The notes beneath the pieces are model-generated. The model saw only the letters and a list, made by a program, of their open reading frames with translations, ran no database searches and was not told where the DNA came from. Of a stretch of 59,420 nt of DNA, positions 23,001 to 47,015 are shown piece by piece. The translations under genes were made by a program, and so were the position numbers. This DNA is from Pseudomonadota bacterium (GTDB lineage Bacteria; Desulfobacterota; Desulfobulbia; Desulfobulbales; SURF-16), in assembly GCA_018897105.1 (NCBI GenBank), contig JAHILF010000065.1, forward strand, positions 1 to 59,420, given 5' to 3'. Numbering within the stretch: position 1 is the first letter of the stretch; the number at the start of each line of letters is the position of its first letter.

Positions 23001-25360
23001 TAGGCCGACTGGTAAGTGTCACCGACCCAGAGGGCAATATTACCTCCTTTACATATGACCTGGCCGGCAACCAGACAAGGATAACTGACGCCAACGGTCA
23101 TGCAACAGCCTTTGTCTATGATGCCAACAACCAGCAGAGCCAGACCATCCTGTCTGGAGGCCAAACGACCACTTTCACATACGACGGGTTAGGAAGAAAG
23201 ACCGCAGAGACCGACGCGGCCGGCAACACCACGCAATTTGCCTATGATGCCAAGGGAAACCTGCTGTCCGTGACCGATGCCCTGGGAGGAGTCACACGGT
23301 ACGAATATGATGCAAACAGCAACCGGATTGCCATTATTGATGCGCGGGGCAACCGCACCACCTTTGCCTTTGACCTGAACAACCGGCCTACATCCAAGAC
23401 CATGCCGAATGGCGGCGTGGAATCCTACGCATATGACCCCGCCGGCCGACAGATAACCAAAACCGATGCCAAAGGCCAGCAGATCGCGTACGGCTATGAC
23501 GCGAGAGGCCTCTTGACCGCTAGGACATATCCCGACGGTTCAATGGTCCAGTTTACCTATACTGCCACCGGCAAGCGGACGACCGCAACAGATGACAGGG
23601 GCATAACCAGCTATGCCTATGATGCCCGGGACCGGATGACCGAGATTACCTATCCGGACGGCCGGGAGATCACCTATTCCTACGATGAGAACAGCCGTCT
23701 CCATGCCATATCAAGCCTGGCCGGGACAATTTCATACGTATACAATAATGGCGGCAGACTGGAAGAAGTTCATGACCAGGCTGGCAACATAACCACCTTC
23801 GCCTATGACCCTGCCGGCAACCGCACTGGACTCGCCTACCCCAACGGCACATCTGTTTCCTACACATACGATATCAATAACCGTCTTTCCCAATTAACCC
23901 ATACTGACTCCCTTTCCCATGTGCTGGCCTCCTACGCCTATACCCTGGGGCCGATCGGCAACCGCACCAGGATCGATGAATCAACCGGAATCGTGCGGCA
24001 GTATAACTATGATAAGCTCTACCGCCTCACTGATGAGAATGTCACTGATCCGACAAACGCGCAGACCTATGCCAACACCTACTCCTACGATGCCGTAGGC
24101 AACAGGCTCATCAAAACCTGCGATGGAGTTGCCACAGACTATACCTACAATGCTGCAGACCAGCTTCTTATAGAAAACGGCATCACCTATACCTATGACC
24201 TGAACGGCAATCTGGAGAGCAAGACCGATGCAGCCGGGACCACGACTTATGCCTACGATTATGAGAACCGGCTGATCATGGTAACATCGCCATCTGACAT
24301 TGTTACTTATGAATATGATGCCGACGGCAACAGGGTCGAGGAGACAACGAGCGCGGGGACCACGCGATACCTTGTGGACACGAACCGTGGGCTGGCGCAG
24401 GTCCTGGCCGAATACACGCCTACCGGGATACTCATCACCTCATACACTTATGCTGACGACCTCATAAGCATGGCTAGGGATGGGCAAACCGTCCACTACC
24501 ATTTCGATGGGCTTGGTTCCACACGTTTGCTCACAAATGACTCTGGAGTCGTTACCGATCAATTTGATTACGATGCCTTCGGGAGTTTGATCGCAAGAAC
24601 TGGGACAACCGAAAATCAGTTCCTTTTCACCGGCCAACAGTATGATGCAAATATCGGGTTCTACTACTTAAGGGCAAGGTATTATCAGCCGACAACGGGG
24701 AGATTTACGGCTCTTGATCCATTCGAAGGAGATTTTTTTGCTCCATCTAGTTTACATAAATATGCTTATGTAAATGCAGACCCTATCAACAAAACGGATC
24801 CTTCTGGGTTATTCGATACTCTAGTAGGATTGATGGCTGCTGCCACAATCATCGATATTCTGTCGGTTATGCAACCTACTATTATTACTGGTCTAATAAT
24901 TTATACAGGAATCAGAGTGTTTTGGCGACCTGGCTTTGCTCTGCGTAACATGGCGCTTGAAGTTATGGCTAAAGGGCCTCCAGGACAAGAAGGATGGGAT
25001 GCAGCCTTTCAGATGTACCAAAAAGGGGCACAGCTTATCCAGCTTGGGGCTTTTTTTATCGACACCGCCAACCAGATCGCCAACATTGTTCAATTCGGAC
25101 TTGGCCTAAGGAACTTAGCAAAGGCTTATCTCAACGTTCCACAAGTAACCTTCACGTCAGTCCAGGTCACTAGCATAACAACTTTTTCAAATGTTACGAT
25201 TCAGGCGGAGGCAGAGGGCATCAGCCTGTTCATGCAAATATCAAGTCTAACAAGTATTCAACTTGTGAGGACATTTACACAGCGATTCACAGATTGGTCG
25301 AAAGTGATTTTTGAAGCAACAAATCTTCTTGCACAGATTCCGAATTTTTCGGTTGATTGA
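17024..25360 (+). CDS. Giant surface or secreted PKD/RHS-repeat protein
   Basis: The 2778-residue protein starts after GAAGGAGGGAATC. A hydrophobic segment (MANLLIWLMAFQGI) near residue 20 may export or anchor it. In order: a PKD-like domain, a fibronectin-III-like domain (about 160-240), an Ig-like domain, seven tandem K319/PKD domains (about 340-990), an Ig-like domain, another PKD-like domain, more Ig-like sequence, an RHS N-terminal segment (MKVGNFTVAFNDLTVP near 1373), more than thirty YD/RHS repeats (about 1570-2540), and the RHS core motif YYLRARYYQPTTGRFTALDP near 2545. The last 200 or so residues after DPSGLFD form a distinct, hydrophobic, more AT-rich tip. In RHS proteins this variable tip is usually the effector or toxin. 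I do not recognise its fold, and no intact immunity gene follows. Confidence 0.93.
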   Translation: MDKERMTMNEFRHSSLCRVMANLLIWLMAFQGIPFQELSRSYQWDPKEFVETLRTMVSPFLPTEAHAASPIADAGPDRTMFKNQPAGALITLDGQASLDPDGDPIVYEWYGPFTSVEGAAPTVGVPDGEHTISLIVSDGTERSEPDSVQVTVSPCFEILSRAKSGKVQLTWPLQAGAVRYDIYRSAESDPANFQKIAETTSAYSTYLDYSVINETSYLYTVGAVSQAGTCFSSVVGSHPTVSRTIENYRPVIYSRPVSHAIVGVPFTSDVQAVDPNGTAVSYQLLTAPPGMLINGTTGLISFDPAQTGSYEVEIQSIDGGGLTALQSFSIQASEATDDNKAPIANAGLDQTAFVMQEVHLDGTGSSDPEGNPLTYSWTFKSLPAGSSAQLADDTSTTPTFTVDAPGVYEVELIVNDGIFNSPPDIVIINTENSKPVAEAGPDQKVLVGGTATLDGSSSSDVDGDPLTFQWAITTKPEDSAAMLSDPSAVDPTLGIDKAGTYSIELIVSDGFTFSDPDMVSLSTENRKPVANAGTDQKIFVGDTATLDGTASYDVDGDPLTFKWSLLNVPPESAATLSDPSDPRPSFYVDKPGTYQLQLIVNDGSIDSDADNVTVSTENRRPTADAGEDRSAFVGDDVTLDGSGSSDVDGDLLSFRWSFITIPEDSTAILSETDQVKATFTIDEPGNYVAQLIVSDGSLDSEADSVTISTTNRNPIANAGQDQTVFVSDPVQLDGSGSTDPDGDTLTYSWSLTSKPEGSSAALSDPSLQKPTFTADLPGTYVAQLIVNDGTLDSLADTVVVSTENSKPVSNAGTDQSAYVGDTVTLDGSGSSDADGHALTFKWSFTSKPSESVAALSDPSAVNPTFLMDKAGTYVAQLIVNDGTMDSDPDSVTISTLNNTPVASAGMDQVVLAGRTVSLNGSGSSDVDGNPLTYQWTLISRPSGSASALSNPATVAPSLTTDLAGDYVVQLIVNDGTENSDPDTVKITAISNSPPSITSSPVTTATAGSPYSYQVTATDPEGNAITFSLEAAPTGMTINTSTGLIQWLPGLSQVGNNNTVKVAATDSWGASVTQDFPIFVKDPTNIAPIVNAGPDQTITLPSTADLNGSVTDDGKPSGCTLTVLWSKVSGPGAVTFSAPTSPTTTASFSETGAYVLRLTANDEQDVGFDEVTVTVNDQTVADFIRPAVTVEVSPDSTYVGTSVTITVSATDNVGVISTSLTVNGAPVALDPSGHATFTSPVAGVFTAVGTATDAAGNVGSSSEQFVFLATGDTTNPIAAITSPADNTKLSAPTDIIGTASDANLIQYTLEYSVKDRNEFVPFATGTASVINGVLGKLDPTMMKNGLYDIRLTAVDASGNTTSTTKIYELTGEMKVGNFTVAFNDLTVPMAGIPITITRMYDSRMKSKGDFGIGWTLGLKNIEISVSGVLGADWQQTSSGGWFPTYSLTETKSHTITITYPDGKVDEFGVAVNPSSQQLVPLEMTTISFVPKPGTTSSLIPLDASPSDLWIQPVLGSVELLDISTLQPFDPQRFQLTASDGTVYVLNLKTGLESIKDTNGNTITFTTNGIIHSAGKSVLFARDAEGRITTITDPMGNTLQYAYDFYGDLISMTDQLGNTTRYTYNSSHGLIDIIDPRGIRGIRNEYDAEGRIIAHIDADGNRIEYTHNIDTRQEIVKDRLGNLNVYDYDIKGNVVAKTDPLGNTTTYTYDANNNKLSETDPLGNTTSWTYDAKNNKLSETKILKHPTDPTQNINVTTRYTYNALNKVLTTTDPLGRVSTNTYDAKGNLLTTTDPMGCTTTNTYDGAGNLLATTDCLGNVTRHEYDGQGNMLKQTDPLGNVTTYTYDGNGNRLTETAQGGGVTRYTYDSANRPTSVQDALGNISFTEYDKAGNIAAKVDPTGVRTVFVYNSANKLVRTNFPDGTFITAAYDAEGNRIAFTDQTGHTTVYQYDANKQLAKTTYPDDSTQTFGYDAAGRQTITTDALGNTTTRAYDSLGRLVSVTDPEGNITSFTYDLAGNQTRITDANGHATAFVYDANNQQSQTILSGGQTTTFTYDGLGRKTAETDAAGNTTQFAYDAKGNLLSVTDALGGVTRYEYDANSNRIAIIDARGNRTTFAFDLNNRPTSKTMPNGGVESYAYDPAGRQITKTDAKGQQIAYGYDARGLLTARTYPDGSMVQFTYTATGKRTTATDDRGITSYAYDARDRMTEITYPDGREITYSYDENSRLHAISSLAGTISYVYNNGGRLEEVHDQAGNITTFAYDPAGNRTGLAYPNGTSVSYTYDINNRLSQLTHTDSLSHVLASYAYTLGPIGNRTRIDESTGIVRQYNYDKLYRLTDENVTDPTNAQTYANTYSYDAVGNRLIKTCDGVATDYTYNAADQLLIENGITYTYDLNGNLESKTDAAGTTTYAYDYENRLIMVTSPSDIVTYEYDADGNRVEETTSAGTTRYLVDTNRGLAQVLAEYTPTGILITSYTYADDLISMARDGQTVHYHFDGLGSTRLLTNDSGVVTDQFDYDAFGSLIARTGTTENQFLFTGQQYDANIGFYYLRARYYQPTTGRFTALDPFEGDFFAPSSLHKYAYVNADPINKTDPSGLFDTLVGLMAAATIIDILSVMQPTIITGLIIYTGIRVFWRPGFALRNMALEVMAKGPPGQEGWDAAFQMYQKGAQLIQLGAFFIDTANQIANIVQFGLGLRNLAKAYLNVPQVTFTSVQVTSITTFSNVTIQAEAEGISLFMQISSLTSIQLVRTFTQRFTDWSKVIFEATNLLAQIPNFSVD
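18043..19990 (+). repeat. Seven tandem K319/PKD-domain repeats, about 279 bp each
   Basis: Seven successive units begin with variants of P-V-A-N-A-G-x-D-Q and contain LDGSGSSDVDGDPLT and ending motifs LIVNDG. The spacing is about 93 residues. DNA identity between units is moderate, so the array is old or under diversifying pressure rather than a recent expansion. Confidence 0.88.
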
Positions 25361-33242: not shown

Positions 33243-33668
33243 TCACCTGAAACTTGAGTACGTACCGCCGCCAGCTACCAGAGGGGAAACATAACACTCG
33301 CCCCGTCGTATTCTGTCCACCGCGATAAAGAGCTCCGTATCGGCATTTTCTTTAAGCAGATATCCTTCCGCTCCGGCAGCCAAAACATAATCCACGTATT
33401 CCTTTTCCCTGTGCATGGTCAGGATCAGAATTTTTACGTTCGGATAGACCATTTTTATCTCACGGGTTGCGGCCAGCCCATGATGATTGGGCATGGAGAT
33501 GCCCCAGATCACCATATCAGGCGGCTCTTTTTGAAAAAAATCAAGAAGCCTCAGGTCGTCCCCTGCCTCCCCGATTACCTTCAGTCCTCCTGCCCCTTCG
33601 AGAAGATCCTTCACGCACTGGCGAAACATGGCATGATCATCTGCCAATACAATACGATACGCGCCCAC
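33243..33668 (-). pseudogene. Decayed receiver-only copy of the downstream response regulator
   Basis: The 141-codon frame is a clear paralogue of the receiver domain of the regulator at 35229-35891 (YRIVLADDHAMFRQ, LILTMH, AGAEGYLLKE are shared). The phospho-accepting Asp is gone: residue 56 is Gly in VIWGISMPN where the intact copy has VILDISMPH. The LuxR helix-turn-helix is missing, since the frame ends in unrelated residues (GGGTYSSFR) after YVSPLVAG. The original ATG is mutated to ACA, leaving a GTG. Similarity extends upstream of the start, so this is a segmental duplication that is decaying. Confidence 0.85.
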
Positions 33669-33719: not shown

Positions 33720-33759
33720 AAAAAAAACAGGTCCCCCGGTAAATCCGGGAGACCTGTTT
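33720..33759 (-). terminator. Intrinsic terminator for the tandem-repeat protein gene
   Basis: A 15-bp stem (33725-33739 with 33745-33759, one mismatch) with loop ATTTA is followed on the minus strand by a run of T (plus-strand A run 33720-33727). It lies about 165 bases beyond the stop of the repeat-protein gene and just before the decayed receiver. Confidence 0.9.
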
Positions 33760-33922
33760 CAAACAGCCACTCGGGAGCCCTGAATGAATGTTGGAAAATC
33801 GCTGCCTGCCTGTTGTGCTGTGCGTTACAGCAACGCTGCCCAACGCTCTTTTTTCAGAAAATATCCTAATTACTATTCATTCAGTGTATGCCTAAAACCC
33901 AAGGAGCAGACAAAGACTCTTA

Positions 33923-34654
33923 TCAGGCGTTGCCTTTGCAGTCTTTCAGTTTATCTTTGGTGTTGTCTTTGTCACGTTCGCGGCCGGCCAGAATCATGTT
34001 TACGCTGTCCGTGCTGTAATCCAGGCAGGAGCCGTCTTTAAGCTTGTCTTGATCCTTGATCTGATCTTTGATGACATCGCCTGAAAGCATAAAGCTACCG
34101 CTTACATCTGTGCTGTAATCCAGGCAGGAGCCGTCTTTAAGCTTGTCTTGATCCTTGATCTGATCTTTGATGACATCGCCTGAAAGCATAAAGCTGCCAC
34201 TTACATCTGTGCTGTAATCCAGGCAGGAGCCGTCTTTAAGCTTGTCTTGATCCTTGATCTGATCCTTGATGACATCGCCTGAAAGCATAAAGCTGCCACT
34301 TACATCTGTACTGTAATCCAGGCAGGAGTCGTCCTTCAACCGATCCGGAATTCCGTCCCCTGTTCCGTCGCGCAGTTTATCAGCGGCCAGAGTAAATACG
34401 CCACTCATATCCGTACTGTAATCCAGGCAGGAGCCATCCTTCAACCGATCCCGATCCGGGATTCCGTCCCCTGTTCCGTCGCGCAGTTTATCGGCGGCCA
34501 GAGTAAATACGCCGCTCACATCCGTGGTGTATGGCACGCAGGAGCCGTCTTTAAGTTGTTTTTGATCCCGGTCCTGGCCATCAGCAACCGCAGCACCTGG
34601 GAGAGTTACGAACATGAATGCCGTTGTCATGAGAATAGCTGTACGTTTAATCAT
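33923..34654 (-). CDS. Secreted protein made of six tandem Cys-containing repeats
   Basis: The 243-residue protein has a signal peptide (MIKRTAILMTTAFMFVTLPG, then AAVA-DG) followed by six repeats of 31-37 residues. Each begins LKDGSCLDYSTD or a variant, with one Cys per repeat, and continues with SGSFMLSGD or SGVFTLAAD and an Asp/Lys-rich part such as KDQIKDQDK or DGTGDGIPDR. The last two motifs recall calcium-binding DxDxDG-like loops, but this is only suggestive. It ends with a further Cys. I do not recognise a family. It should be periplasmic or extracellular. It lies between a sensory operon and a decayed copy of that operon's regulator. AAAGGCGG lies ahead of the ATG. Confidence 0.85.
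   Translation of the reverse strand: MIKRTAILMTTAFMFVTLPGAAVADGQDRDQKQLKDGSCVPYTTDVSGVFTLAADKLRDGTGDGIPDRDRLKDGSCLDYSTDMSGVFTLAADKLRDGTGDGIPDRLKDDSCLDYSTDVSGSFMLSGDVIKDQIKDQDKLKDGSCLDYSTDVSGSFMLSGDVIKDQIKDQDKLKDGSCLDYSTDVSGSFMLSGDVIKDQIKDQDKLKDGSCLDYSTDSVNMILAGRERDKDNTKDKLKDCKGNA
34011..34555 (-). repeat. Tandem coding repeats with 99-, 105- and 111-bp periods
   Basis: Landmarks such as GTGCTGTAATCCAGGCAGGA recur at 34011, 34110, 34209, 34308, 34413 and 34524, that is with spacing 99, 99, 99, 105 and 111. The 99-bp units differ by only a few bases, which indicates recent duplication and probable length variation between strains. Confidence 0.92.
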
Positions 34655-35228
34655 CTGTTTATCCGCCTTTAAATTGTCTTAGGTTAATTATTTCTTTGTG
34701 TTACCAGAACCTTCAGGTGCCCTTTCCGGGGTTCACCTTGCTGCCTTCAGCCCCCAACTACCTCATTTCAAGTATCTCCCCCATGCGATACTTCCGAGTG
34801 CCGACAGGCAGGACTCAAAAACTAAAACCGTGCTCATCGCTTTTTTCCCTTCACCTCCTTGCCGGGATTTTTGTCCGCGTCCTCCCCAGGCTCCAATGGG
34901 GGAAACGCAACCCGCCGCATGTATTATTGCAGCTTTTTCAGCAACTCCCTGTTTCTTGATTCCAGCCGGAAGAAAAAACATAAAGCCGCAGGAATTTTTT
35001 GTTGCCGTAAAATGGATAAGGATCTATAGGAGCCGCAAGTTCGAATCGTTTGAATGAAATTTTTATCGAACTCGAAAAGATCCCCCCGTTTGAATGGAAC
35101 TTTACGACTTAAAGAGCTCGGAAACAATCCGGCGAACTACTCAAGACTTAATCAGATTAACTACCTATTGACGGATGGGTATTACTACTCAGAAGTGAGA
35201 TAATAGCAGGTTTTTAAAGGATTTTTCT
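34655..35228. other. Intergenic region, no supported gene
   Basis: About 575 bases lie between the repeat-protein gene and the NarL-type regulator. Short open frames on both strands have no ribosome binding site or motif. In the leader of the repeat-protein gene (34715-34738) a small stem, AGGTG/CACCT extended by CCC/GGG, could form. I cannot assign it to a known riboswitch. Confidence 0.45.
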
Positions 35229-35891
35229 TTATTTGGTGGACAGAATATAGCCCTTGTTTAGGGCATATTTTACCAGATTGGCGGTTTGTTTGATGTTCAG
35301 CTTGCGCATGATATTGGCGCGGTGATTTTCCACGGTACGGCTACTGATAAAGAGCAGATCGGCAATCTCCTTGTTGGAGATCCCCTCTGCAATCAGCTTC
35401 AGAATTTCCCGTTCCCGGGTGGTCAGAGGATCGGATAGGGAAGACATCTCTCCTTTGTGGGAGGCCTGCACCAGATCAAAGGCAAATTCCCCGGACAGGA
35501 GCGGCGAGATATAGCAACCGTTGTCCCTGATCTTTTCGATGGCGGCAAAGAGTTCCGTATCCGCATCCTCCTTGAGCAGATATCCTTCCGCTCCGGCTGA
35601 CAGGGCGGAATAAACGTAATCCTTGTCCTTGTGCATGGTCAGGATCAATACCTTCACATCGGCGGAGATCATTTTAATCTCCCGGGTTGCCTCAAGCCCG
35701 CGGAGATGCGGCATGGATATGTCCAGAATCACCAGATCAGGTGTTCCCTGCCGTAAAAGTTCAAGAAGCATGAGGCCATCGCTCGCCTCCCCGACAACCT
35801 CAAGGCCCTCGACAGTTTCGAGAATATTTTTGATACCCTGACGGAACATGGCATGATCATCGGCCAGCACAATACGATACGGCGTCACCAT
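35229..35891 (-). CDS. NarL/FixJ-type response regulator
   Basis: The 220-residue protein has an N-terminal receiver with acidic pair ADD near 10-12, phospho-accepting Asp near 57 (VILDISMPH) and the conserved Lys in GYLLKED, and a C-terminal LuxR-type helix-turn-helix (LTTREREILKLIAEGISNKE near 145). ATG 35891 has GAGG seven bases upstream and is preferred over a GTG at 35903. It follows the kinase at 35900 directly and is its cognate regulator. Its targets are unknown, but the tandem-repeat protein gene next door is a candidate. Confidence 0.94.
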   Translation of the reverse strand: MVTPYRIVLADDHAMFRQGIKNILETVEGLEVVGEASDGLMLLELLRQGTPDLVILDISMPHLRGLEATREIKMISADVKVLILTMHKDKDYVYSALSAGAEGYLLKEDADTELFAAIEKIRDNGCYISPLLSGEFAFDLVQASHKGEMSSLSDPLTTREREILKLIAEGISNKEIADLLFISSRTVENHRANIMRKLNIKQTANLVKYALNKGYILSTK

Positions 35892-35899
35892 CGGTTTCC

Positions 35900-37696
35900 T
35901 CACTCATTTAAATGAAGGGTAAAGCTGATTCTGGTACCTGTCCCTTGACGACTCCAAACATCGAGAGATCCGCCCAGCATGCGGACCCGCTCGTTCATGG
36001 CGGAGAGTCCCAGGCCGTATTTAGCGTGGTCCCGCCCATAGGCGTCCTGCACATCAAAACCCTGGCCGTCATCCTCCACCCGGAAGAAAAAACTGTCTTC
36101 CTGCCTTCTGAGAGTGACCGCTACATGACTGGCTTTGGAGTGCTTTGCTATGTTGGTAAGACATTCCTGGACGATTCGATACACGGTAATCTTCTGATCA
36201 CGGGAAAAAAGATCGTCAAGCTCGGTCATATCAAGTGAACAGTTAATATTATACAGTTTGCCGGATGATTCAACAAGTCGGCGGACGGCGATGGTCAGCC
36301 CCAGATCCTCCAGAATGGAAGGGCTCAGATCCCGGGACAGGCGGCGGACGTTTTCCGTGACCTCATTGATGTAATTGATCACGGCATCACACTCTTTTTT
36401 CAGGCCTGTCTCAGCGTCGCCCCAGGTCCTCTGGATGGCCCGCACCTTGAGTTTAAGCACCATCAGCGACTGTCCCAGTTCGTCATGGAGTTCCACGGAA
36501 AGTCGCCTGCGTTCTTTTTCCTGGGCGGTAAGGAGCTGGGCGGACAGGAAGCGGAGTTCCTTCTCGGACTGCCGGAGTGCCTCCTCCGCCTTCCTGCGTT
36601 CGGTGATGTCACGGGCAATGCCGACGACCCCCTCTATTCCTCCCTCTTTATCTTTCAGAACCGCGGCTGAAAAAAGCATGGGCACACTTGTGTCATCCTT
36701 GGCCAGATAGTCTATTTCCAGATTGATGATTTTTTCTCCGGCGAGCACCTGCCGAAATCCCGCTTCACTGAAAAATATCTCTTCCAGGGGAAGAATTTTA
36801 TGTATATCCCGGCCGATCAGTTCATCCGCCTCATAGCCGAGAAGCTCACAGGTCGCCTTGTTCACGCTGCTGATCCTGGAATCCCGATCAAGCACCACCA
36901 GGGTATCGTTCATGCTGCCGATAATGTTATCAACATAATCTCTGGAGATGGTCGTTTTCCGCAGATTCTCCGTCATTTCGTTAAAGGAATTGGCCAAAGC
37001 GCCGATCTCATCGTTTCTTCTGATGGTCAACCGGGTAATGAGATCGCCTGCGGCCACTTTGCCGGTGGCATCGGTTATCTTTTTGATCGGCGCAGCGATA
37101 AAGGCAGCCAGCAGATAGGCGGAAATACCACCGATGAGAATGGTTACCACACCCATCAGGAAAATCTGTCGCCGAGCGCTGGCAATTTCCTTTTCAACCG
37201 CCATATAGGAATATCCCAGCCGGACCGTTCCCAAGCGGGCATCTTCAAGGGAGATGGGGGTATAGATATCGTAATAGTGTTCCCCGCTGTCAGGCAGGGA
37301 TGCCCGGAAACTGCCATGTTTCTCGGACTTCATCGCCACGGTGGTCATACTGTCCCGATAGATTTTGCCGACTTCTTTCAGGTCACTGTGCATCACCACC
37401 TTACCCAGGGGGTCAAGCAGGATGACGTAACGGACATAATCCTGCTCCATGGAGTGATTGACAAAACGGCGGAGAGTCGGCAGGTCGTTGCTTAACATGG
37501 GACTGGTGGTAAATTTGGCCACATCGGCGGCTAACGCGAGTCCCCGTTTGCGCAGCTCGCTTTCCAGGCTTTCCTTTTCCCGCATGGTGGTGATAATACC
37601 GGTAACCACGACAATAATCACCACCAGACTTTCAATCAGCAGGGTCAGTTTGGTGCGTAAGCTGAATTTCACCCATCGTTGCGGGTAGAGTTCCAT
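35900..37696 (-). CDS. Membrane NarX-type sensor histidine kinase with PAS domain
   Basis: The 598-residue protein has a membrane segment at about 17-37, a periplasmic region (about 40-175), a second membrane segment (about 178-200), a HAMP domain, a PAS domain with PAC tail (about 255-380), and a HisKA_3 dimerisation domain. Its phospho-accepting His is near 404 in SVELHDELGQSL, and the HATPase near the end has GQGFDVQ and KYGLGLSAMNERV. HisKA_3 kinases pair with NarL-type regulators, which fits the next gene. Upstream lies a PhnD-like periplasmic protein, so the three form a binding protein/kinase/regulator module. Confidence 0.94.
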   Translation of the reverse strand: MELYPQRWVKFSLRTKLTLLIESLVVIIVVVTGIITTMREKESLESELRKRGLALAADVAKFTTSPMLSNDLPTLRRFVNHSMEQDYVRYVILLDPLGKVVMHSDLKEVGKIYRDSMTTVAMKSEKHGSFRASLPDSGEHYYDIYTPISLEDARLGTVRLGYSYMAVEKEIASARRQIFLMGVVTILIGGISAYLLAAFIAAPIKKITDATGKVAAGDLITRLTIRRNDEIGALANSFNEMTENLRKTTISRDYVDNIIGSMNDTLVVLDRDSRISSVNKATCELLGYEADELIGRDIHKILPLEEIFFSEAGFRQVLAGEKIINLEIDYLAKDDTSVPMLFSAAVLKDKEGGIEGVVGIARDITERRKAEEALRQSEKELRFLSAQLLTAQEKERRRLSVELHDELGQSLMVLKLKVRAIQRTWGDAETGLKKECDAVINYINEVTENVRRLSRDLSPSILEDLGLTIAVRRLVESSGKLYNINCSLDMTELDDLFSRDQKITVYRIVQECLTNIAKHSKASHVAVTLRRQEDSFFFRVEDDGQGFDVQDAYGRDHAKYGLGLSAMNERVRMLGGSLDVWSRQGTGTRISFTLHLNE

Positions 37697-37731: not shown

Positions 37732-38616
37732 CTACCTAACCTTTTTTTCACGGATAAGTTCCCGCATTTCGTCATAATGCTTATCCGTTGTCCGTTGAAA
37801 TCCCCCCACTTCAGCAGAGTAAAGGATTTTGGCATGTTCAGGATTACTGTTGTTGAGTTTCAGCAAGGCCCGGTCGAACTTGGCGATAAGCGCAGGGTCC
37901 AAGTCCTTGCGGGCGGCAAATACCCTGGTCGGCACCCATCTGGTGATGGCAATGATGTGAAGCTCCTGGGCGTTGACCCCGAGTTCCCGCTGTTTTTTTG
38001 CATGCTCGTCAAGATAATGGTCGCATACCACTCCGGCATCAAAGGCCTTGAGAAACACATTGAAGAGGATATCCTCACAGCAGCCGCCATTGGCATACAT
38101 CGATAAATCCTTGTCAATATCAATGCCATTTTCTTCAAACAGCATTTTAGCCACCACCCATTTGGAGGCCGAAAGCTTGGACCCGAACATGACGGACTTG
38201 CCGACCAGATCCTTCATAGTGTTAATATTGCTATCTTTCCTGGCAACGAGGGCGCCGGACTGGTAGATGCTCCCCTTCAGATTGAGGGCCCGCAGCAGGG
38301 TCTTTTGGTCATAGAGCCCGGCAAATTTCACGTACACATTGGGGTCCTGGAAAGCAAAATCGATATCCTTATTCCTTATCTGGGCCTCGAATTCAGCGGC
38401 ATCAGGCGGGAACACCAGCTTGATCTCCGTGCTGGTTTCCGCCTGCAGATAGGTGAGCAGCGGATGGAATTTTTTATAGCTCAACACCACATCACTGCAG
38501 GGGGAAACGGCGATAACAATCTTCTTTCCGACCTCTTCGGCAGAGCTTACGCCGGCCAGCAGGCAGAAAATAAATAGAAACGCCACAACTCCATTAACCA
38601 ATTTCCTGATCCTCAT
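37732..38616 (-). CDS. PhnD-like periplasmic substrate-binding protein, sensory
   Basis: The 294-residue protein has a signal peptide (about 1-27, ending VSSA-EE) and the phosphonate-binding-like fold (PF12974 type): KIVIAVSPCSDVV, YLQAETSTEIKLVFP, DIDFAFQDPNVYVK. No ABC permease or ATPase adjoins it. Instead a kinase and regulator follow 35 bases downstream, so it is probably the ligand sensor of that pair. Three Cys sites (SPCSD, GGCCED, GVVCDHY) are unusual in this family and would suit a thiophilic ligand, as in the arsenite sensor AioX, which is also PhnD-like. That is a guess. The ATG at 38616 has AGAGG before it. Confidence 0.87.
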   Translation of the reverse strand: MRIRKLVNGVVAFLFIFCLLAGVSSAEEVGKKIVIAVSPCSDVVLSYKKFHPLLTYLQAETSTEIKLVFPPDAAEFEAQIRNKDIDFAFQDPNVYVKFAGLYDQKTLLRALNLKGSIYQSGALVARKDSNINTMKDLVGKSVMFGSKLSASKWVVAKMLFEENGIDIDKDLSMYANGGCCEDILFNVFLKAFDAGVVCDHYLDEHAKKQRELGVNAQELHIIAITRWVPTRVFAARKDLDPALIAKFDRALLKLNNSNPEHAKILYSAEVGGFQRTTDKHYDEMRELIREKKVR

Positions 38617-39142
38617 ATTCAACCTCTTTCAGCTGATACAGTCCATTATCCTTAATTATCCTTACAGCGTTACTTACAAAAAATCTGTCTCCATCTATAA
38701 CACGCATTTCTCGCAAGTAGTGTTGCAATAAGCTGAAAAATTTCCTTTTTTAATGTAACACAAAATTTCCCGAATATGTCCCCTTTTTCGTGGTCTCCGC
38801 TTTTACACCGGTATATCGAGGCTTTCCTCTGACAGGCCACCAAAATGAATAGCCGCCTTCATTTTTGTCACGTTTGCTGCAAAATTGGCGAGTTGTGTTC
38901 CACTTGCCGTTGCTGCATAACTCACTGAACAATCACATTTAACCGTATGATATTACTTAAAATTAATAAAAGTTGTCGCCTTGGCACCAGGTTTGCTCTA
39001 TAGCTGTTCAACGTTGCCGAGTCGATTTTTTCGGGCTGGCCGCCAGGATTTATTAAAAAGTATGCTGAGTCGAGCTTTGCGGTTAATTCCGTGCTGTTTC
39101 TATTAACTGGTGCCAACTGCGGAAAGGTTTCGACTTGTTATT
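38617..39142. other. AT-rich divergent intergenic region
   Basis: About 525 bases lie between the leftward PhnD-like gene and the rightward metal cluster. The region is AT-rich and holds promoters for both directions. Open frames here have no motif or ribosome binding site. The right end carries the first ModE-like palindrome. Confidence 0.5.
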
Positions 39143-39166
39143 CGTTATGTATATTATTATATACCG
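39143..39166. promoter_or_regulatory. ModE-like operator A, before the first regulator gene
   Basis: CGTTAT-N12-ATACCG forms an inverted repeat with the spacing of the E. coli ModE operator (CGTTAT-N12-ATAACG type) and an AT-rich core. It ends 17 bases before the ATG at 39184, so it should overlap the promoter or leader of the regulator gene and allow autoregulation. Confidence 0.6.
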
Positions 39167-39183
39167 ACAAAAGGAGAGAAAAG

Positions 39184-39528
39184 ATGAAGAGGGCATGCAT
39201 GAAACCGCCAAGCTGCTGTGTTGTTGTCGAAATTGAACAGGGAGCATTTCTGGGGTACCGAAGGGCCGTGCTTCTTGACGAGATACGAAGCCAGGGCTCA
39301 CTGTCGCAAGCGGCAAAATCGGCAGAGATTCATCATGACCATGCACTGCATCTCCTGACCGAGATGAACGGTTCCTTCCATACACCGCTGGTCCATTTTC
39401 ATGAAAACAGCTTGGAAACCGACAGCGCCCGACTCACAGAGGCAGGTGAAGAAATGGTTCGTTCCTACTGGAGCAATTTTGCAACCGTCTGGACATCCAT
39501 TGCCGCAGAACGCTGCAAACATTATTAA
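39184..39528 (+). CDS. ModE-type winged-helix regulator without molybdate-binding domain
   Basis: The 114-residue protein matches the N-terminal DNA-binding domain of ModE: FLGYRRAVLLDEIRSQGSLS followed by QAAKSAEI. It stops before any Mop/TOBE domain, so it cannot sense molybdate in the classical way. The recognition helix is diverged: HHDHALHLLTEMN stands where ModE and the second copy at 54078 have SYRHAWDLVDSMN. The N-terminus has a CC pair and the protein is His-rich, which could allow direct metal binding (inference). The start is ATG 39184 with AGGAG upstream. A ModE-like palindrome lies 17 bases before it. Confidence 0.85.
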   Translation: MKRACMKPPSCCVVVEIEQGAFLGYRRAVLLDEIRSQGSLSQAAKSAEIHHDHALHLLTEMNGSFHTPLVHFHENSLETDSARLTEAGEEMVRSYWSNFATVWTSIAAERCKHY

Positions 39529-39565
39529 ACCATCATCTTTGCAAATAATAACAGAGGAGATCGCA

Positions 39566-40054
39566 GTGAACGCTGAAATGAAATCCAGCAACAAACAATC
39601 CAGCCATAGTGAGGATTACGAACTTCGCCTATGCGGCAGGGTGACAACGCCTCTTATCCTCAACATTGAACAGCTTCGGGCCATGGATCCCGCGGAGACG
39701 GATGACCTTCCCATGATCTGCGGCAACGGCGATCCCAAAGGCTGCATAGGGCATTGCCGGGGGGTTCTGCTGTCAGACATCATCAACAGAGCCGATATCC
39801 TGATAACAGGCCACAATGATACGCGGAAAATGTTCATCGTCGCCTCATCGGACGACGGGTACAAGGTGGTCTTTTCCTGGCAGGAGATCTTCAATACGCC
39901 GACAGGCGAAGGCATCATGGTTCTGCTGGAAAAGAACGGCAGGTCCCTTTATGAAGAACATGGTGCGGTTGATCTTGTCTCCGCCCGGGATTACCTGACC
40001 GGACCACGTTATGTCAGACAGCTCAGGATCATTGAAATCGTATTGGTGGAATAA
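39566..40054 (+). CDS. Small sulfite-oxidase-fold (molybdopterin-binding-like) protein
   Basis: The 162-residue protein resembles the short members of the SUOX/PF00174 superfamily: YELRLCGRVTTPLILNIEQL at the start, PMICGNGDPKGCIGHCRGVL near 65 and GPRYVRQLRIIEIV at the end. The Cys in PMICGNG corresponds in position to the cofactor-ligand Cys region of the family, but this short form lacks the dimerisation domain. It has no signal peptide, so it is probably cytoplasmic. I chose the GTG at 39566 because AGAGGAG lies six bases upstream. An ATG at 39578 is the alternative. It lies 37 bases after the regulator and in the same direction, hence likely co-regulated. Confidence 0.8.
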   Translation: MNAEMKSSNKQSSHSEDYELRLCGRVTTPLILNIEQLRAMDPAETDDLPMICGNGDPKGCIGHCRGVLLSDIINRADILITGHNDTRKMFIVASSDDGYKVVFSWQEIFNTPTGEGIMVLLEKNGRSLYEEHGAVDLVSARDYLTGPRYVRQLRIIEIVLVE

Positions 40055-40067
40055 TTTTTTTTACAAT

Positions 40068-40091
40068 CGTTATTCTTTTTTGTATATAGCG
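40068..40091. promoter_or_regulatory. ModE-like operator B, upstream of TonB receptor 1
   Basis: CGTTAT-N12-ATAGCG, extended by an A before and AA after, is a near-perfect ModE-type palindrome with the same spacing as site A. It lies in the 164-base gap before the first TonB-dependent receptor, 127 bases from its start. Confidence 0.65.
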
Positions 40092-40177
40092 AAATGTTCT
40101 ATCGAGAAGATGAAATAAGAAAAAAATAGTTTCAATTAGTTGACTAACCTTGCTTATTTTTGATTTTTTTTATTTAT

Positions 40178-40201
40178 CGTTATGCATTTAGAAACACAAC
40201 C
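40178..40201. promoter_or_regulatory. Weak ModE-like half-site before TonB receptor 1
   Basis: A perfect CGTTAT half-site is followed after 12 bases by ACAACC, which matches ATAACG at only four of six positions. It sits 17 bases before the receptor start, the same relative position as site A. It may be a secondary site or chance in an AT-rich stretch. Confidence 0.3.
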
Positions 40202-40218
40202 GTTGGGAGGGTTGAGTC

Positions 40219-42237
40219 ATGAAATGCAGTATTGTTGAGAGGTTCCCCGTTTCTGTGGGGATCATACTGGCCTTACTGGCCATGCCACTGGCCGGCAGAG
40301 CGGATGAGACAGAAAATACGGAAACTAGCGTCTTCACCTTGGGGGAGATCGAGGTCAGCGGCAAAACGGAGGAAAACAAAAACATCACCATCGAAAAAAT
40401 TGACGCCGAGGAGTTACGCGATTTCGACCGGAACACCGTGGCCGACGCGGTGAACCTGCTGCCTGGGGTGACATCGTCGGTGACCGGGGCACGCAACGAG
40501 CAGACCGTATATGTGCGGGGCTTTGACATCAAGCATGTGCCGATTTTTCTCGACGGCATACCTATTTACGTTCCCTATGACGGCTATCCCGACCTTGCCC
40601 GCTTTACCACCTTCGATCTGTCGGAGATCATCGTTTCCAAAGGATTCACCTCAGTCCTTTACGGCCCCAACACCATGGGTGGGGCCATCAATATGGTATC
40701 CCGCCGGCCGGAAAAGACCTTTGAAGGCAGCGTAGGCGCAGGATACGGCTCGGGCAATACCTATAATGGCTACATGAATCTCGGCACCAACCAGAACAGC
40801 TGGTATGTGCAGACCGGGGCCTCTTACCTGAGCAGCGATTATTTCAATCTTTCTGATGACTTCAAGGCTTCCGCAGCCGAGGACGGCAGCCACCGGGAGA
40901 ATTCCTACCAACGTGACGAGAAGATCAATATCAAGCTGGGTTTTACGCCGAATAAGGATGACGAATATGCCTTCAGTTACATCTACCAGCACGGGGTCAA
41001 GGGCACCCCGCCCTATGTCGGCACCGACCCGGATGAGAAGGTGCGCTACTGGAAATGGCCCTATTGGGACAAACAGAGCTATTTCTTTACCTCAAAGACA
41101 GATTTTGCCGGCAAGGCCTATCTGAAAACCCGGGCCTTCTATGATATATTCAAGAACTCCCTGTGGAGCTATGACGACGCCACCTACACCACCATCACCA
41201 GGCCTTACGCCTTCAGGAGCCACTATGACGACTATACGGACGGCGGCTCGATTGAGGTGGGCACAACGGTAATTCCCGACCATCTGCTCAAGCTCGCCCT
41301 GCACTACAAACTCGATGTGCATAAAGAGCAGGATGACAGCGATCCGGTCAAGACCTTCAAGGACCAGATGCTGTCGGTGGGACTGGAAGACACCATAACC
41401 ATTTCCAAGAGTTTCTATGCCATAGCCGGTGCCAGCTACGATACTCTTGACACCCTGGTGGCGGAAGACCTGACCTCCGACGGGCAGATTGTCAATTTCC
41501 CCAAGGGCGGTACTTCAGGTTTCAACCCCCAGCTCGGCCTCTTTTATCTACCGTCCGAGGCCTGTACGCTCCACGCGTCAATAGCGCAAAAAACCAGGCT
41601 CCCTTCCATCAAGGACAGATATTCGTACCGGCTCGGCACAGCCATTCCCAACCCTGATCTGGACCCGGAGAGATCAGTAAACTATGAGATCGGCTATGAG
41701 GACCGGCACCTTGAGAATCTGCGCTTCAAGAGCACCGTCTTTTACAACGATGTCAGCGATTATATTCAGCTGACAACCATACCGGAACCGAACAATCCGG
41801 GGATCACGACCACCCAGAACCTCAACATCGGCGAGGTCGATCTCTACGGCCTGGAACTTGAACTCTCAGGCTACCTGCTCACCTCGCTGGAAATCGGCTG
41901 TAACTACACCTTCACCTATGCAGAAAACAAGACCGATGCAAGCGAGCTGATCAACATCCCCCGGCATAAGGCAGTCGCCTATCTGCGCTACACCCTGCTG
42001 GACAACTTAAGCGCCCTGATCGACGCGGAATATGACTCAAAACGCTATAGTTCAACAGACGGCGATCAGGTTGCCCAGGGATTTACCGTGGCCAATGTGA
42101 AGTGCAGCTATGCCTTCGGCAACGGAGTTGTTGCCGAGGCCGGGGTAAAAAACGTTTTTGACCGGGATTACGAACTGCAGGAAGGGTATCCCGAAGCGGG
42201 GAGAACCCTGTTTGCCACCATGCGCTATACATTCTGA
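40219..42237 (+). CDS. TonB-dependent outer-membrane receptor 1
   Basis: The 672-residue protein has a signal peptide (about 1-29, ending LAGRA), a plug domain (about 55-170) with LLPGVTSSVTGARNEQTVYV, VYGPN-type LYGPNTMGGAINMVSRRP, and a beta-barrel that ends in the outer-membrane signature (RTLFATMRYTF). The segment after the signal (TSVFTLGEIEVSG) may contain the TonB box. It imports a ligand across the outer membrane using TonB energy. GGGAGGGTTGAGTC precedes the ATG. The two ModE-like sites upstream and the FmdE gene 15 bases downstream tie it to metal handling. The barrel sequence does not tell the ligand. Confidence 0.93.
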   Translation: MKCSIVERFPVSVGIILALLAMPLAGRADETENTETSVFTLGEIEVSGKTEENKNITIEKIDAEELRDFDRNTVADAVNLLPGVTSSVTGARNEQTVYVRGFDIKHVPIFLDGIPIYVPYDGYPDLARFTTFDLSEIIVSKGFTSVLYGPNTMGGAINMVSRRPEKTFEGSVGAGYGSGNTYNGYMNLGTNQNSWYVQTGASYLSSDYFNLSDDFKASAAEDGSHRENSYQRDEKINIKLGFTPNKDDEYAFSYIYQHGVKGTPPYVGTDPDEKVRYWKWPYWDKQSYFFTSKTDFAGKAYLKTRAFYDIFKNSLWSYDDATYTTITRPYAFRSHYDDYTDGGSIEVGTTVIPDHLLKLALHYKLDVHKEQDDSDPVKTFKDQMLSVGLEDTITISKSFYAIAGASYDTLDTLVAEDLTSDGQIVNFPKGGTSGFNPQLGLFYLPSEACTLHASIAQKTRLPSIKDRYSYRLGTAIPNPDLDPERSVNYEIGYEDRHLENLRFKSTVFYNDVSDYIQLTTIPEPNNPGITTTQNLNIGEVDLYGLELELSGYLLTSLEIGCNYTFTYAENKTDASELINIPRHKAVAYLRYTLLDNLSALIDAEYDSKRYSSTDGDQVAQGFTVANVKCSYAFGNGVVAEAGVKNVFDRDYELQEGYPEAGRTLFATMRYTF

Positions 42238-42252
42238 AAAGGAGGCATGAAT

Positions 42253-42882
42253 ATGGAAAAATATAAAGAATTTGCACAGCTACTGGATAAGGCGGCGGCA
42301 TTTCACGGCCACCTCTGCGCCGGACAGGTTATCGGTGTGCGCATCGCCATGCTCGGCCTGCGCGAGATCGGTATAAGCGATCCCCTGGGCGAGGACCGTA
42401 AAAAGCTCATTGTCTTTGTCGAGATCGACCGCTGCGCCACAGATGCGATCATGACCGTCACCGGCAGCAGGGTAGGCAGACGAAGCCTCAAAATCGTGGA
42501 TAACGGGAAAATGGCGGCAACCTTTATCAACATCGAGACCGATAAGGCGGTGCGCATCGTTTCACTACGGAACGCGCGGGAAAAAGCGGCTGCCAGGTAT
42601 CCGGAACTGAGTGATAGCGCGGCGCAGATGCAGGCGTACAGGGAGATGCCGGACATCGACTTGTTCAGCGTGCAGGATGTCTCGGTAGCGCTGAAGCCGG
42701 AAGATATGCCGGGCCGCCCGACAGGCAGAGCCCGCTGCGAAATCTGCGGGGAAACGATCCTTGACAAACGCGACATCCAACAAAACGGCAAGGCTCTCTG
42801 CCGGCCATGCGCGACAGGAAACACTTACTACACCGTGCAATCGCCCCTCCGGCCACCGTTGCAGGATGGAGGTCCCCTATGA
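42253..42882 (+). CDS. FmdE-family protein 1 with C-terminal zinc finger
   Basis: The 209-residue protein has the FmdE domain of the formylmethanofuran dehydrogenase subunit E family: FHGHLCAGQ at 17-25, VEIDRCATDAI near 58-68, and MAATFINIE near 95. A C-terminal CxxC...CxxC zinc finger follows (CEIC and CRPC, about 163-188). FmdE proteins are linked to molybdenum and tungsten enzymes, but outside methanogens their exact job is unknown. The conserved His and Cys could bind metal. Two ATGs are possible. AGGAGG fits the second, at 42253. It follows receptor 1 and overlaps the methyltransferase start by four bases. Confidence 0.9.
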   Translation: MEKYKEFAQLLDKAAAFHGHLCAGQVIGVRIAMLGLREIGISDPLGEDRKKLIVFVEIDRCATDAIMTVTGSRVGRRSLKIVDNGKMAATFINIETDKAVRIVSLRNAREKAAARYPELSDSAAQMQAYREMPDIDLFSVQDVSVALKPEDMPGRPTGRARCEICGETILDKRDIQQNGKALCRPCATGNTYYTVQSPLRPPLQDGGPL

Positions 42883-43718
42883 ATACCGCCCACGCATTGA
42901 CCATGGACATGAAAAAGGTGAACTGGAATATGGTATGGCGTGAAGCCCGGCAGCAGCGGAAGTACGATCGCAACGACAACTCCTACTGGAACCGCCGCGC
43001 CCCGTCATTTGCCCGACATACAAAGACCAGCGGCTATGCCCGGAATTTTCTGCGCCTCATGAATCCGAAGCCGGAGTGGAGCGTCCTTGACGTGGGCTGC
43101 GGGGCGGGAACCCTGGCCATTCCGCTTGCCGGCCTGGTGCAGGCCGTGACGGCGATTGATTTTTCGGATGTCATGATCTCCATCCTGGGCGAGCGGTGCT
43201 GGGAACAGGCTATTACCAATGTGACCCCATGCGTCATCGGTTGGGAGGATGACTGGGATATGGCCGGCATTGCGGAGCATGACGTGGCCATTGCCTCACG
43301 CTCACTGGTGGTCGAGGATCTCCACGCCGCAGTGACAAAGCTTGACAGCAAGGCCCGCCGGAAGGTTTTCATCTCCTCGCTGGTGGGTGACGGTCCTTTT
43401 GACCGCAGAATTTTTGAGGCAATAGGGCGGGAGCTTGACCGGGGGCCTGATTACCTCTGCGTCTACAACCTGCTGCACCAGATGGGTATTTTCGCCGATG
43501 TCACCTTTGTGATGAACGGCGACGGCGGAAAGGTCTACAGCAGTATCGATGAGGCAGTGAAAGGCTTCCGCTGGATGATCGGCGACATGACTGCCGATGA
43601 GGAGGCCCGCCTGAGAATCTATCTTGAAGGGCATTTCGTTAAAAAAGAGGGAGGCTGGGCGCTTTCCTACCATCATGAAGTCCGCTGGGCCATCATCTCG
43701 TGGAACAAATCGACCTGA
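42879..43718 (+). CDS. SAM-dependent class-I methyltransferase 1
   Basis: The 279-residue protein has motif I VLDVGCGAGTLAIPLAG near 69-85 and AIDFSDVMI near 95, the SAM-binding core of class-I methyltransferases. The N-terminal 50 residues (VNWNMVWREARQQRKYDRND, then YWNRRAP) are typical of methyltransferases found next to FmdE genes in anaerobes, by recollection. The substrate is unknown. No membrane segment or signal is seen, so it is cytoplasmic. Start ATG 42879 overlaps the FmdE stop (ATGA), and GGAGG lies eight bases upstream. It is the last gene before the second regulated unit. Confidence 0.88.
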   Translation: MNTAHALTMDMKKVNWNMVWREARQQRKYDRNDNSYWNRRAPSFARHTKTSGYARNFLRLMNPKPEWSVLDVGCGAGTLAIPLAGLVQAVTAIDFSDVMISILGERCWEQAITNVTPCVIGWEDDWDMAGIAEHDVAIASRSLVVEDLHAAVTKLDSKARRKVFISSLVGDGPFDRRIFEAIGRELDRGPDYLCVYNLLHQMGIFADVTFVMNGDGGKVYSSIDEAVKGFRWMIGDMTADEEARLRIYLEGHFVKKEGGWALSYHHEVRWAIISWNKST

Positions 43719-43747
43719 TCAACGTATCGGAATATTTTTTTCAGCAA

Positions 43748-43770
43748 CGTTATTCATTCCGCGCATAGCG
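43748..43770. promoter_or_regulatory. ModE-like operator C, upstream of TonB receptor 2
   Basis: CGTTAT-N11-ATAGCG is followed by AA, like site B, and shares the TTC after the left half with it. The spacer is one base shorter than in sites A and B. It lies 83 bases before the second receptor gene in the 135-base gap after the first methyltransferase. Confidence 0.55.
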
Positions 43771-43853
43771 AAAGTTACCGAGGTTTCGCAAGTCAATGCA
43801 TCCAACAATTGCAACTACGGCACAAACCTAATTGAAAAGGAGTAAAAAAGAAA

Positions 43854-45941: not shown

Positions 45942-45986
45942 CGGCTCCATGCCGTTGACCAAAAAATCGGGAAAAGGACAAAAAAA

Positions 45987-47015
45987 ATGAAACTGCTGAT
46001 AGGATTACTGCTGGCCCTACTTATCATGGCAAGCCACGGCCAGGCGCGTGAAATTACCGATATGTCCGGGCGAAGCGTACTCGTCCCCGACCATATAACC
46101 AGGGTCTACGCTGCGCAGCCTTACACACTCGTACTGATGGCCGTGGTCGCCCCGGACCTGCTGGTCGGCCTACCCGGTCCACTGAGCGAAGGCGACCGAC
46201 GCTTCGTCGGCCCGGAGATGGTGGCCCTGCCCGTATTCGGCTCCGGTATGGGACCGGGGGCAAAGCCGGACATGGCTGCGGTGCTGGCTTTACATCCTGA
46301 CATCGTTCTCCTGAAGGGTGGACCGCGAACCGATACGGCAAGGGCGGTCAAGAGGTTTGCCGGGACAGGCCTGCCGGTTGTTTTTGTGGATATCGACCGC
46401 ATCGAGGATTATGCAGCCGGCATCGAATTCACCGGCGCCCTGCTTGAGCGCGGTGATCGCGCCGGGAAACTCGCTGCCTATGCCCGTCGTATCCTGACGG
46501 AAATCGACCGGGCGATATCCGCCGTTCCGGCAGCGCAACGGGTCAGTGTCTATTACGCCGAGTCAGCGGATGGATTGGCCACGGAATGTGATCAATCGTT
46601 CCATGCCGATGCCATCAGACTTGCCGGCGGCGACATTGTTCATCATTGCACCCTTTCGCGCCACATCGGCATGGAACCGGTAAGCCTTGCCCAGGTGCTG
46701 GAGTACAATCCGCAATTCATTGTCGCAGCCGATCCGGCCTTTGCCGCATCCGTACGTACCGATGAGCGCTGGCAGGGCGTCAGGGCGGTCGCCGAGAAAA
46801 AGGTGCTTTCCATACCGCGTTCACCATTCAACTGGATCGACAGACCGCCTTCCGTGATGCGTCTGATGGGTGTGCAATGGCTGGCCCACTGCTTCTATCC
46901 CGAGCGCTATCCTCTCGACCTGCGGGAAGCGACACGTGAATTTCAGCAGCTTTTTTTCGGCGTTACCCCCAACCGATGCCGATGTCGATCAACTGTTAAA
47001 GGATTTACCGCATGA
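45987..47015 (+). CDS. Periplasmic metal-complex binding protein 1 (class III), altered C-terminus
   Basis: The 342-residue protein has a cleavable signal (ending GQA-RE) and the TroA/BtuF-like fold used by cobalamin, haem and siderophore importers: EITDMSGRSVLVPDHITRVY, ALHPDIVLLKGG, VYYAESADGL and PFNWIDRPPSVMRLMGVQWL. The last motif is shared with the second copy at 49325. The final 15 or so residues (NRCRCRSTVKGFTA) look wrong. Reading one base over from the C run at 46967-46971 gives TPTDADVDQLLKDLPHESL and a stop at 47025, which resembles a natural tail. A one-base insertion or sequencing error is likely. It has no permease of its own next to it. Confidence 0.88.
   Translation: MKLLIGLLLALLIMASHGQAREITDMSGRSVLVPDHITRVYAAQPYTLVLMAVVAPDLLVGLPGPLSEGDRRFVGPEMVALPVFGSGMGPGAKPDMAAVLALHPDIVLLKGGPRTDTARAVKRFAGTGLPVVFVDIDRIEDYAAGIEFTGALLERGDRAGKLAAYARRILTEIDRAISAVPAAQRVSVYYAESADGLATECDQSFHADAIRLAGGDIVHHCTLSRHIGMEPVSLAQVLEYNPQFIVAADPAFAASVRTDERWQGVRAVAEKKVLSIPRSPFNWIDRPPSVMRLMGVQWLAHCFYPERYPLDLREATREFQQLFFGVTPNRCRCRSTVKGFTA

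Follow-up and report, generated by a model that had tools for sequence, protein, structure and literature searches.

CpxP turns off CpxA by binding to it. Like CpxP and similar envelope-stress feedback proteins, the protein described here is exported, is encoded next to a sensor system and is probably controlled by that sensor; unlike them, the DGSC family to which it belongs is built as a repeat array, turns over fast and is found with unrelated regulators. Thrombospondin type 3 (TSP3) repeats are similar in that an Asp/Gly calcium-type loop is followed by Cys and in being secreted and tandem, but the present family has no Pfam match to them, carries one Cys per 25-52 residues and has a DGSC core and a hydrophobic stretch that are not known as parts of TSP3. 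DUF6799 (PF20606) of Bacteroidota is comparable in that KDQDRLRLKDGSCLD-type text occurs both in a Lutibacter DUF6799 protein and in a nearby four-unit protein, but the protein studied here gave no DUF6799 row, and our unit profile A5 misses that Lutibacter genome at E ≤ 1e-4.

The gene lies at 33923-34654 on the minus strand of the window, by which we mean the whole stretch of DNA analysed (59,420 nucleotides), and encodes a DGSC-repeat exported protein of 243 aa (P0001). The open reading frame, its coordinates and its strand were correct on re-check, and the observation on which the original prediction was built, an exported repeat protein, is confirmed. A predicted Sec-type signal peptide, MIKRTAILMTTAFMFVTLPGAAVA followed by DG, was recognized by eye at residues 1-24 (34583-34654, minus strand), and the N-terminus resembles those of relatives in genomes G021, G017 and G018. 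Six DGSC-type units follow, with Cys at residues 39, 76, 111, 144, 177 and 210 (spacings of 37, 35, 33, 33 and 33), each unit running from a charged loop through DGSC and LDYSTD to a hydrophobic stretch. The six Cys repeats thus stand as predicted, but the SCLDYSTD core attributed to all of them occurs in five, the first unit having SCVPYTTD. A seventh Cys, residue 239, falls within KDKLKDCKG of the C-terminal tail (RDKDNTKDKLKDCKGNA; 33926-33976, minus strand), which is retained in G018 and G019 and absent from G021 and G017.

At the DNA level, the two highest tandem-repeat scores of the whole window (Tandem Repeats Finder) belong to this gene: a 99-bp array at 34011-34333 (3.3 copies, 97% matches, score 611) and an older 111-bp array at 34295-34546 (85% matches, score 352). 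Units 3, 4 and 5 (34031-34327, minus strand) encode the same protein sequence; pairwise comparison over 99 positions shows 2, 4 and 2 differences, every one of them synonymous. The recent expansion of three 99-bp units proposed earlier is supported. Asp/Gly loops of calcium type are clearer in relatives (for example, DRDNDGICDGDGPDQDRDG in G018) and in window units 1-2, where the older array (minus strand) reads DGTGDGIPDR; at the loop position the three newest units have KDQIKDQDKLKDG, without the clearer DGTGDG. The gene is single-copy in its own genome, the sole other row (E 0.36) being interrupted by a stop. An intrinsic terminator lies 3' of it at 33720-33763 (minus strand; fold z -4.33) and was found in five aligned genomes, imperfectly in G017; Rfam returned nothing at the gathering score and four weak rows at this terminator.

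Units expand and homogenize within species. The newest units within one gene share 0.95-0.99 DNA identity in the window and likewise in G021, and between the two genes the repeat units match at a mean of 0.71. The arrays turn over fast, because the histidine kinase of G021 is 98% identical to that of the window (585/598; response regulator, 97%) whereas the repeat units reach at most 0.80; at the protein level about 65% is kept in the best segment and the tail is lost. The pair G131 and G120 gives the same picture, with units up to 0.98 and 1.00 identical within each gene and at most 0.81 between them. Unit sequence, length or number varies among the species compared, and the copy-number variation anticipated between strains is supported as variation between relatives: G021 has 4 units, G017 has 5 and the window 6, and these are species rather than strains. 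Strong selection on the unit is not general, because five of the six differences between two units of G017 are in non-synonymous codons and five of six unit pairs in G131 show 1-6 differences in such codons. True copy number is uncertain, because contigs of G018, G019 and G120 break off within related genes, as would fit long arrays of near-identical units, and copies may have collapsed in assembly; genes of this class, with arrays ending at contig breaks in several assemblies, may be under-counted.

The original prediction named a match to a known repeat family as one result that would overturn it, and no match to the window protein at cut-off was found in Pfam, NCBIfam or the PDB sequences, the last giving 0 phmmer matches even at E ≤ 1. 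Relatives scanned against the library families likewise matched none at cut-off, except for the DUF6799 protein on a Lutibacter contig. Rows below cut-off were judged to be chance: PF00278 (E 0.03) and LcpA (E 0.003, 17 of 300 bits) for the window protein, and PF24241 (E 5.5e-5, 23.6 of 27 bits), DUF4293, DUF5859, WGxxGxxG and others for relatives. Pfam gave no curli-type amyloid repeat row for the window protein or the relatives scanned, and the viral contigs scanned held no relative of the gene. In the literature searched, none of the listed titles or abstracts deals with the repeat family, and one of six unit strings occurs, in a single unrelated paper; passages of PMC12142623 likewise gave nothing on the family.

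The claim that no family has this pattern therefore stands for curated families at cut-off, but relatives exist across the order and, more thinly, across the phylum. In the genus they occur in five of six genomes (G020 lacks one), and G019 has an additional two-unit gene elsewhere in its genome. In the class, unit profiles A4 and A5 find 22 and 24 of 257 genomes at E ≤ 0.01, a few of the rows being weak or spurious and the 24 including the window genome and at least one spurious row (G123, a 22-residue frame). In the phylum, 14 of 395 genomes match at E ≤ 0.001; three of them (G000, G187 and G199) had been found in the class as well, and G612, which lacks a signal peptide, is spurious. None of 395 genomes of another phylum matches profile A5 at E ≤ 1e-4, a search that serves as a false-positive check only. 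We also dropped G137 and G032 (unrelated long reading frames) and G196 (no DGSC frame); G790 seems genuine, and its contig of 3.6 kb places it outside the neighbourhood tally below. In L153 the repeat gene is at 6781-7089. The D, S and C of DGSC are invariant in 31 units that were themselves selected by the DGSC motif, and mature proteins of 68-278 residues have 2-9 Cys. The window protein has the family traits of a signal peptide, a Cys after an Asp-rich loop and units that match the profile, this last by construction because window units are among the A5 rows. The comparison thus outlines an exported repeat family undescribed in the protein libraries and literature searched, in an order that includes Desulfurivibrio. 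On Lutibacter contig L013, an exported DGSC-like protein of four units is encoded near a DUF6799 protein (4325-4711 and 7152-7871); this resemblance is unconfirmed because that genome is among the 395 non-matching genomes of the other phylum.

In the window, the repeat gene is flanked by genes of a two-component system, all on the minus strand: a NarL/LuxR-type response regulator (Response_reg and GerE; 35229-35903, Pfam and synteny), a histidine kinase with sCache_3_2, HAMP, PAS, HisKA_3 and HATPase_c domains (35900-37696, Pfam) and a PhnD-like periplasmic binding protein (PF12974; 37732-38622). Because the PhnD-like protein weakly resembles the tetrathionate kinase TtrS (E 8e-9, far below the model cut-off), a sulfur oxyanion is one possible signal, which we offer as a guess. 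On the other side lies a paralogue of the response regulator that consists of the receiver only, without a DNA-binding domain (33243-33668, minus strand; Pfam and alignment), and in which Gly (WGISMP) takes the place of the Asp (LDISMP) that is probably the phospho-acceptor of the full regulator. This apparently phospho-dead single-domain receiver seems to be maintained, because it is 99, 89 and 84% identical in G021, G018 and G019, respectively. The order pdxJ, receiver-only gene, repeat gene, response regulator, kinase and PhnD-like gene is shared by the window genome and G021 and recurs in G017 minus the receiver-only gene; in G018 the two halves of the locus are on two contigs, each ending inside the repeat gene. 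Beyond the kinase operon, window positions 38600-46000 hold a ModE-like HTH gene, a molybdopterin-domain protein, two TonB receptor-like genes and an FmdE-like gene, possibly a metal-uptake cluster (names partly by eye).

Across the family, the neighbourhood tally comprised 33 distinct genes from 35 loci, with G018 and G120 (two contigs each) counted once. A kinase and NarL-type regulator lie within 2 kb of 11 genes, an operon encoding an ECF sigma factor of one family and an AMPK1_CBM protein lies within 3 kb of 13, one gene has the receiver-only paralogue alone in contig reach and eight have neither regulator for the queries used. These eight include G876, near a distant ECF-like gene (22% identity), G832, near a receiver-like match (31%), and G584 and G773, near kinase/regulator genes of another type. 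The AMPK1_CBM domain of the ECF partner was assigned by Pfam on the G133 copy; its N-terminal part is a putative anti-sigma domain, judged from position and sequence pattern. The partner is present in 47 of 257 class genomes, 32 of which have no DGSC match, and in 0 of the 22 genomes that make up the window's family (E ≤ 1e-14); at the looser E ≤ 1e-5 there are matches in 16 of the 22, confined to the CBM part (residues 103-199 of 200). In the window lineage the gene is thus accompanied by a two-component system and not by this ECF sigma factor. In four genomes of one genus (L071, L067/L068, L078 and L144), nickel/cobalt genes occur no further than about 8 kb from the repeat gene; they are NikR, CbiM or DUF4198, assigned by Pfam for L071 and L078 and by similarity for the others.

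Conserved upstream boxes match the kind of adjoining regulator, a response regulator here and an ECF sigma factor elsewhere. Upstream of the window gene, three GTAGT boxes start exactly 24 bp apart (35136-35188, minus strand), and this triple box with 24/24 spacing precedes three orthologues as well, the first box being GTACT in G018; the bases between boxes vary, most in G017. A looser-spaced exact GTAGT pattern occurs once each in G000, G017 and G021, at the repeat-gene promoter, and is absent from G018, G019 and G020. A single occurrence alone is not striking, given 0-3 occurrences of a reversed control pattern per genome; what stands out is that the place is conserved and the spacing exact. 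The boxes are likely the operator of the adjacent response regulator. The link to the two-component system put forward in the original prediction is accordingly likely on the strength of this box array.

For the ECF-linked genes, GTAAC-N16-CGTT was found at -98 to -138 in all eight that are not downstream of the ECF operon and in 0 of 18 others in a start-codon-anchored test of 26 genes, where the 18 include the ECF-linked genes of G186, G893 and G821, which are downstream of the ECF operon on the same strand (G893 with a terminator-like hairpin, by eye, between operon and repeat gene). Two more ECF-linked genes have the site by position (G074, spacer 16; G165, spacer 15), and it precedes the ECF gene itself in 10 of 13 ECF loci, as expected for self-activation; in G158 the ECF gene is located after the repeat gene, in the same orientation, and has no site of its own. 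A looser GTAAC/CGTT pattern occurs 29 times in 767 kb of strand of these loci, true sites included. A second kinase type is accompanied by a TGTAG-N9-CTACA inverted repeat (≤1 mismatch) before four of five genes (not in G054) and in 0 of 14 other upstream regions scanned; in 383 kb there are 3 exact and 17 one-mismatch sites, gene-linked ones included. Both by-eye motifs, the ECF promoter and the inverted repeat, were tested partly on sequences where they were first seen, the former having been noticed in seven of the eight tested genes, with G798 and nine further loci found later.

The window gene thus has an adjacent regulator with matching upstream boxes, as compared with eight of the 33 genes that have neither regulator. 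Because upstream boxes fit the neighbouring regulators, we read the family as a signal-controlled exported repeat family, and we regard this reading of family and regulation as highly probable. The repeats change quickly between species, and the controlling switches, which differ by lineage, look well kept. The family offers a small natural example of one output gene coupled to exchanged regulators, and with three kinds of upstream box its regulation is open to direct experiment.

The same ECF promoter points to a wider family. Twenty further ECF loci were taken, 18 of them from genomes without a DGSC match (G148 and G187 have one elsewhere), and nine of the 20 encode an exported GNG/GPGDGTG protein in which one to three Cys follow the signal peptide, the ECF promoter lying at -107 to -153 before these nine genes; in two others, G142 and G081, the contig ends close to the promoter site. 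One of the nine aligns with a DGSC protein at 47% over 75 residues, signal peptide included (pairwise E 2e-9, a value inflated by low-complexity text). The GNG/GPGDGTG proteins are like the DGSC genes and products in promoter, in place beside the ECF operon (shared with many DGSC genes), in a similar signal peptide and in a Cys after an Asp/Gly loop, often followed by a hydrophobic stretch; they differ in lacking DGSC, in having far more glycine and in being linked to an ECF sigma factor and not to a two-component system as in the window. DGSC arrays probably represent a charged and expanded version of an older exported protein under ECF control. The ECF operons themselves (for example, L078 3291-5636) have a conserved gene set that encodes the ECF sigma factor, the AMPK1_CBM protein, a small lipoprotein-like protein and an exported protein of about 300 aa; in several genomes the gene for this exported protein carries a separate copy of the ECF promoter.

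A further element lies between the boxes and the start codon of the window gene, where a 5' leader with hairpins (34691-34805, minus strand) is conserved in G021 (91%) and G018 (82%); the segment was not found in G017, and it has no Rfam match at the gathering score. In the leader search, 12 of 22 genomes gave some match at E ≤ 1, of which only the rows of G000, G021 and G018 were kept. One A-U to C-G change that preserves a pair was read from the alignment and folds. A cis-acting RNA or riboswitch is possible, and it stays a candidate lead because the fold z-scores in the three genomes are 0.35, -0.77 and -1.17; the hairpins persist.

The family and its regulation are well supported by comparison, and the biochemical role of the repeat protein is something we infer. 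Metal binding and cross-linking or cofactor binding by the Cys, as put forward in the original prediction, are likewise conjectural. The explanation that we favour overall, though it falls somewhat short of probable, is that an envelope signalling system has the exported tandem-repeat protein as its output. A triggered sensor would lead the response regulator to bind the three GTAGT boxes, and the repeat protein would then be made and exported by Sec. Its acidic loops may bind Ca2+ or another divalent ion, its short hydrophobic stretches may pair as β-strands and chains could be joined through the lone Cys at the base of each strand, forming a cross-linked layer that is periplasmic or on the surface; chain length would be set by unit number, which would change through unequal recombination. 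A Ca2+-dependent, cysteine-linked periplasmic or surface polymer is our best guess for the role, and a tentative one. The AlphaFold model of the window protein places strands at residues 41-53, 78-90, 113-125, 148-158, 181-191 and 218-223; in this low-confidence model the strands of units 1-5 are 11-13 residues long and begin two to four residues after the Cys, and that of unit 6 is 6 residues long and starts eight residues beyond its Cys. Poor models (mean pLDDT 51 for the window protein and 40 for the G131 relative, which has no strands) make this strand picture weak. We think it very unlikely that the strands stack in parallel so that a regular ladder of Cys holds metal ions or sulfur, giving a length-tunable thiol scaffold outside the cytoplasm that is switched on by redox, metal or sulfur signals and has been re-plugged several times into ECF or two-component control.

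An alternative interpretation is that the single-Cys array and its acidic neighbours act as a sponge that captures soft metals or zero-valent sulfur outside the cytoplasm, with unit number as capacity and the signalling system responding to the captured species. The DGSC Cys that anchors every unit (in the 31 motif-selected units), the weak TtrS likeness of the kinase-side binding protein and the NikR, CbiM or DUF4198 genes near relatives in four genomes of one genus are all consistent with such capture, but we consider it unlikely, given that Cys are few (2-9 per mature protein), that CxxC occurs in 1 and CxC in 4 of 18 proteins checked, with 0-4 His, and that nickel genes adjoin relatives in that genus only. 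Envelope signalling with the repeat protein as its output also has to be set against direct feedback, in which the periplasmic repeat protein would bind its own sensor kinase and turn the response off as CpxP does. The gene lies beside the kinase operon and is preceded by what is likely an operator of the regulator encoded there, as such a partner should; a binding partner is, however, distinctly unlikely in view of a kinase that is 98% identical between the window and G021 while its supposed ligand has diverged and lost its tail, and of a repeat family that also accompanies unrelated regulators.

The DGTGDGIPDR and DRDNDGICDGDG loops resemble the calcium loops of TSP3, and the protein could on that ground be a degenerate member of a known calcium-loop repeat family such as TSP3 or RTX. 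We rate this as very improbable: Pfam searches brought up neither a TSP3 nor an RTX row, with thresholds of E ≤ 1 for the window protein, E ≤ 10 for three relatives and E ≤ 0.1 for ten, and the units, at 25-52 residues, are not the nine of an RTX nonapeptide. That the array has no selected function and reflects slippage in a low-complexity gene that happens to be expressed is the least probable reading, since the between-species differences in unit sequence, length or number, the tail missing from G021 and G017 though kept elsewhere and the non-synonymous unit differences in G017 and G131 are set against a retained reading frame, signal peptide, terminator and upstream boxes and against window units 3-5 that differ at synonymous positions only. 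Repeat text of another kind occurs elsewhere in the window, at 22107-22236 and 24002-25357, where RHS/YD-type 63-bp repeats accompany a long RHS-like open reading frame (named by eye).
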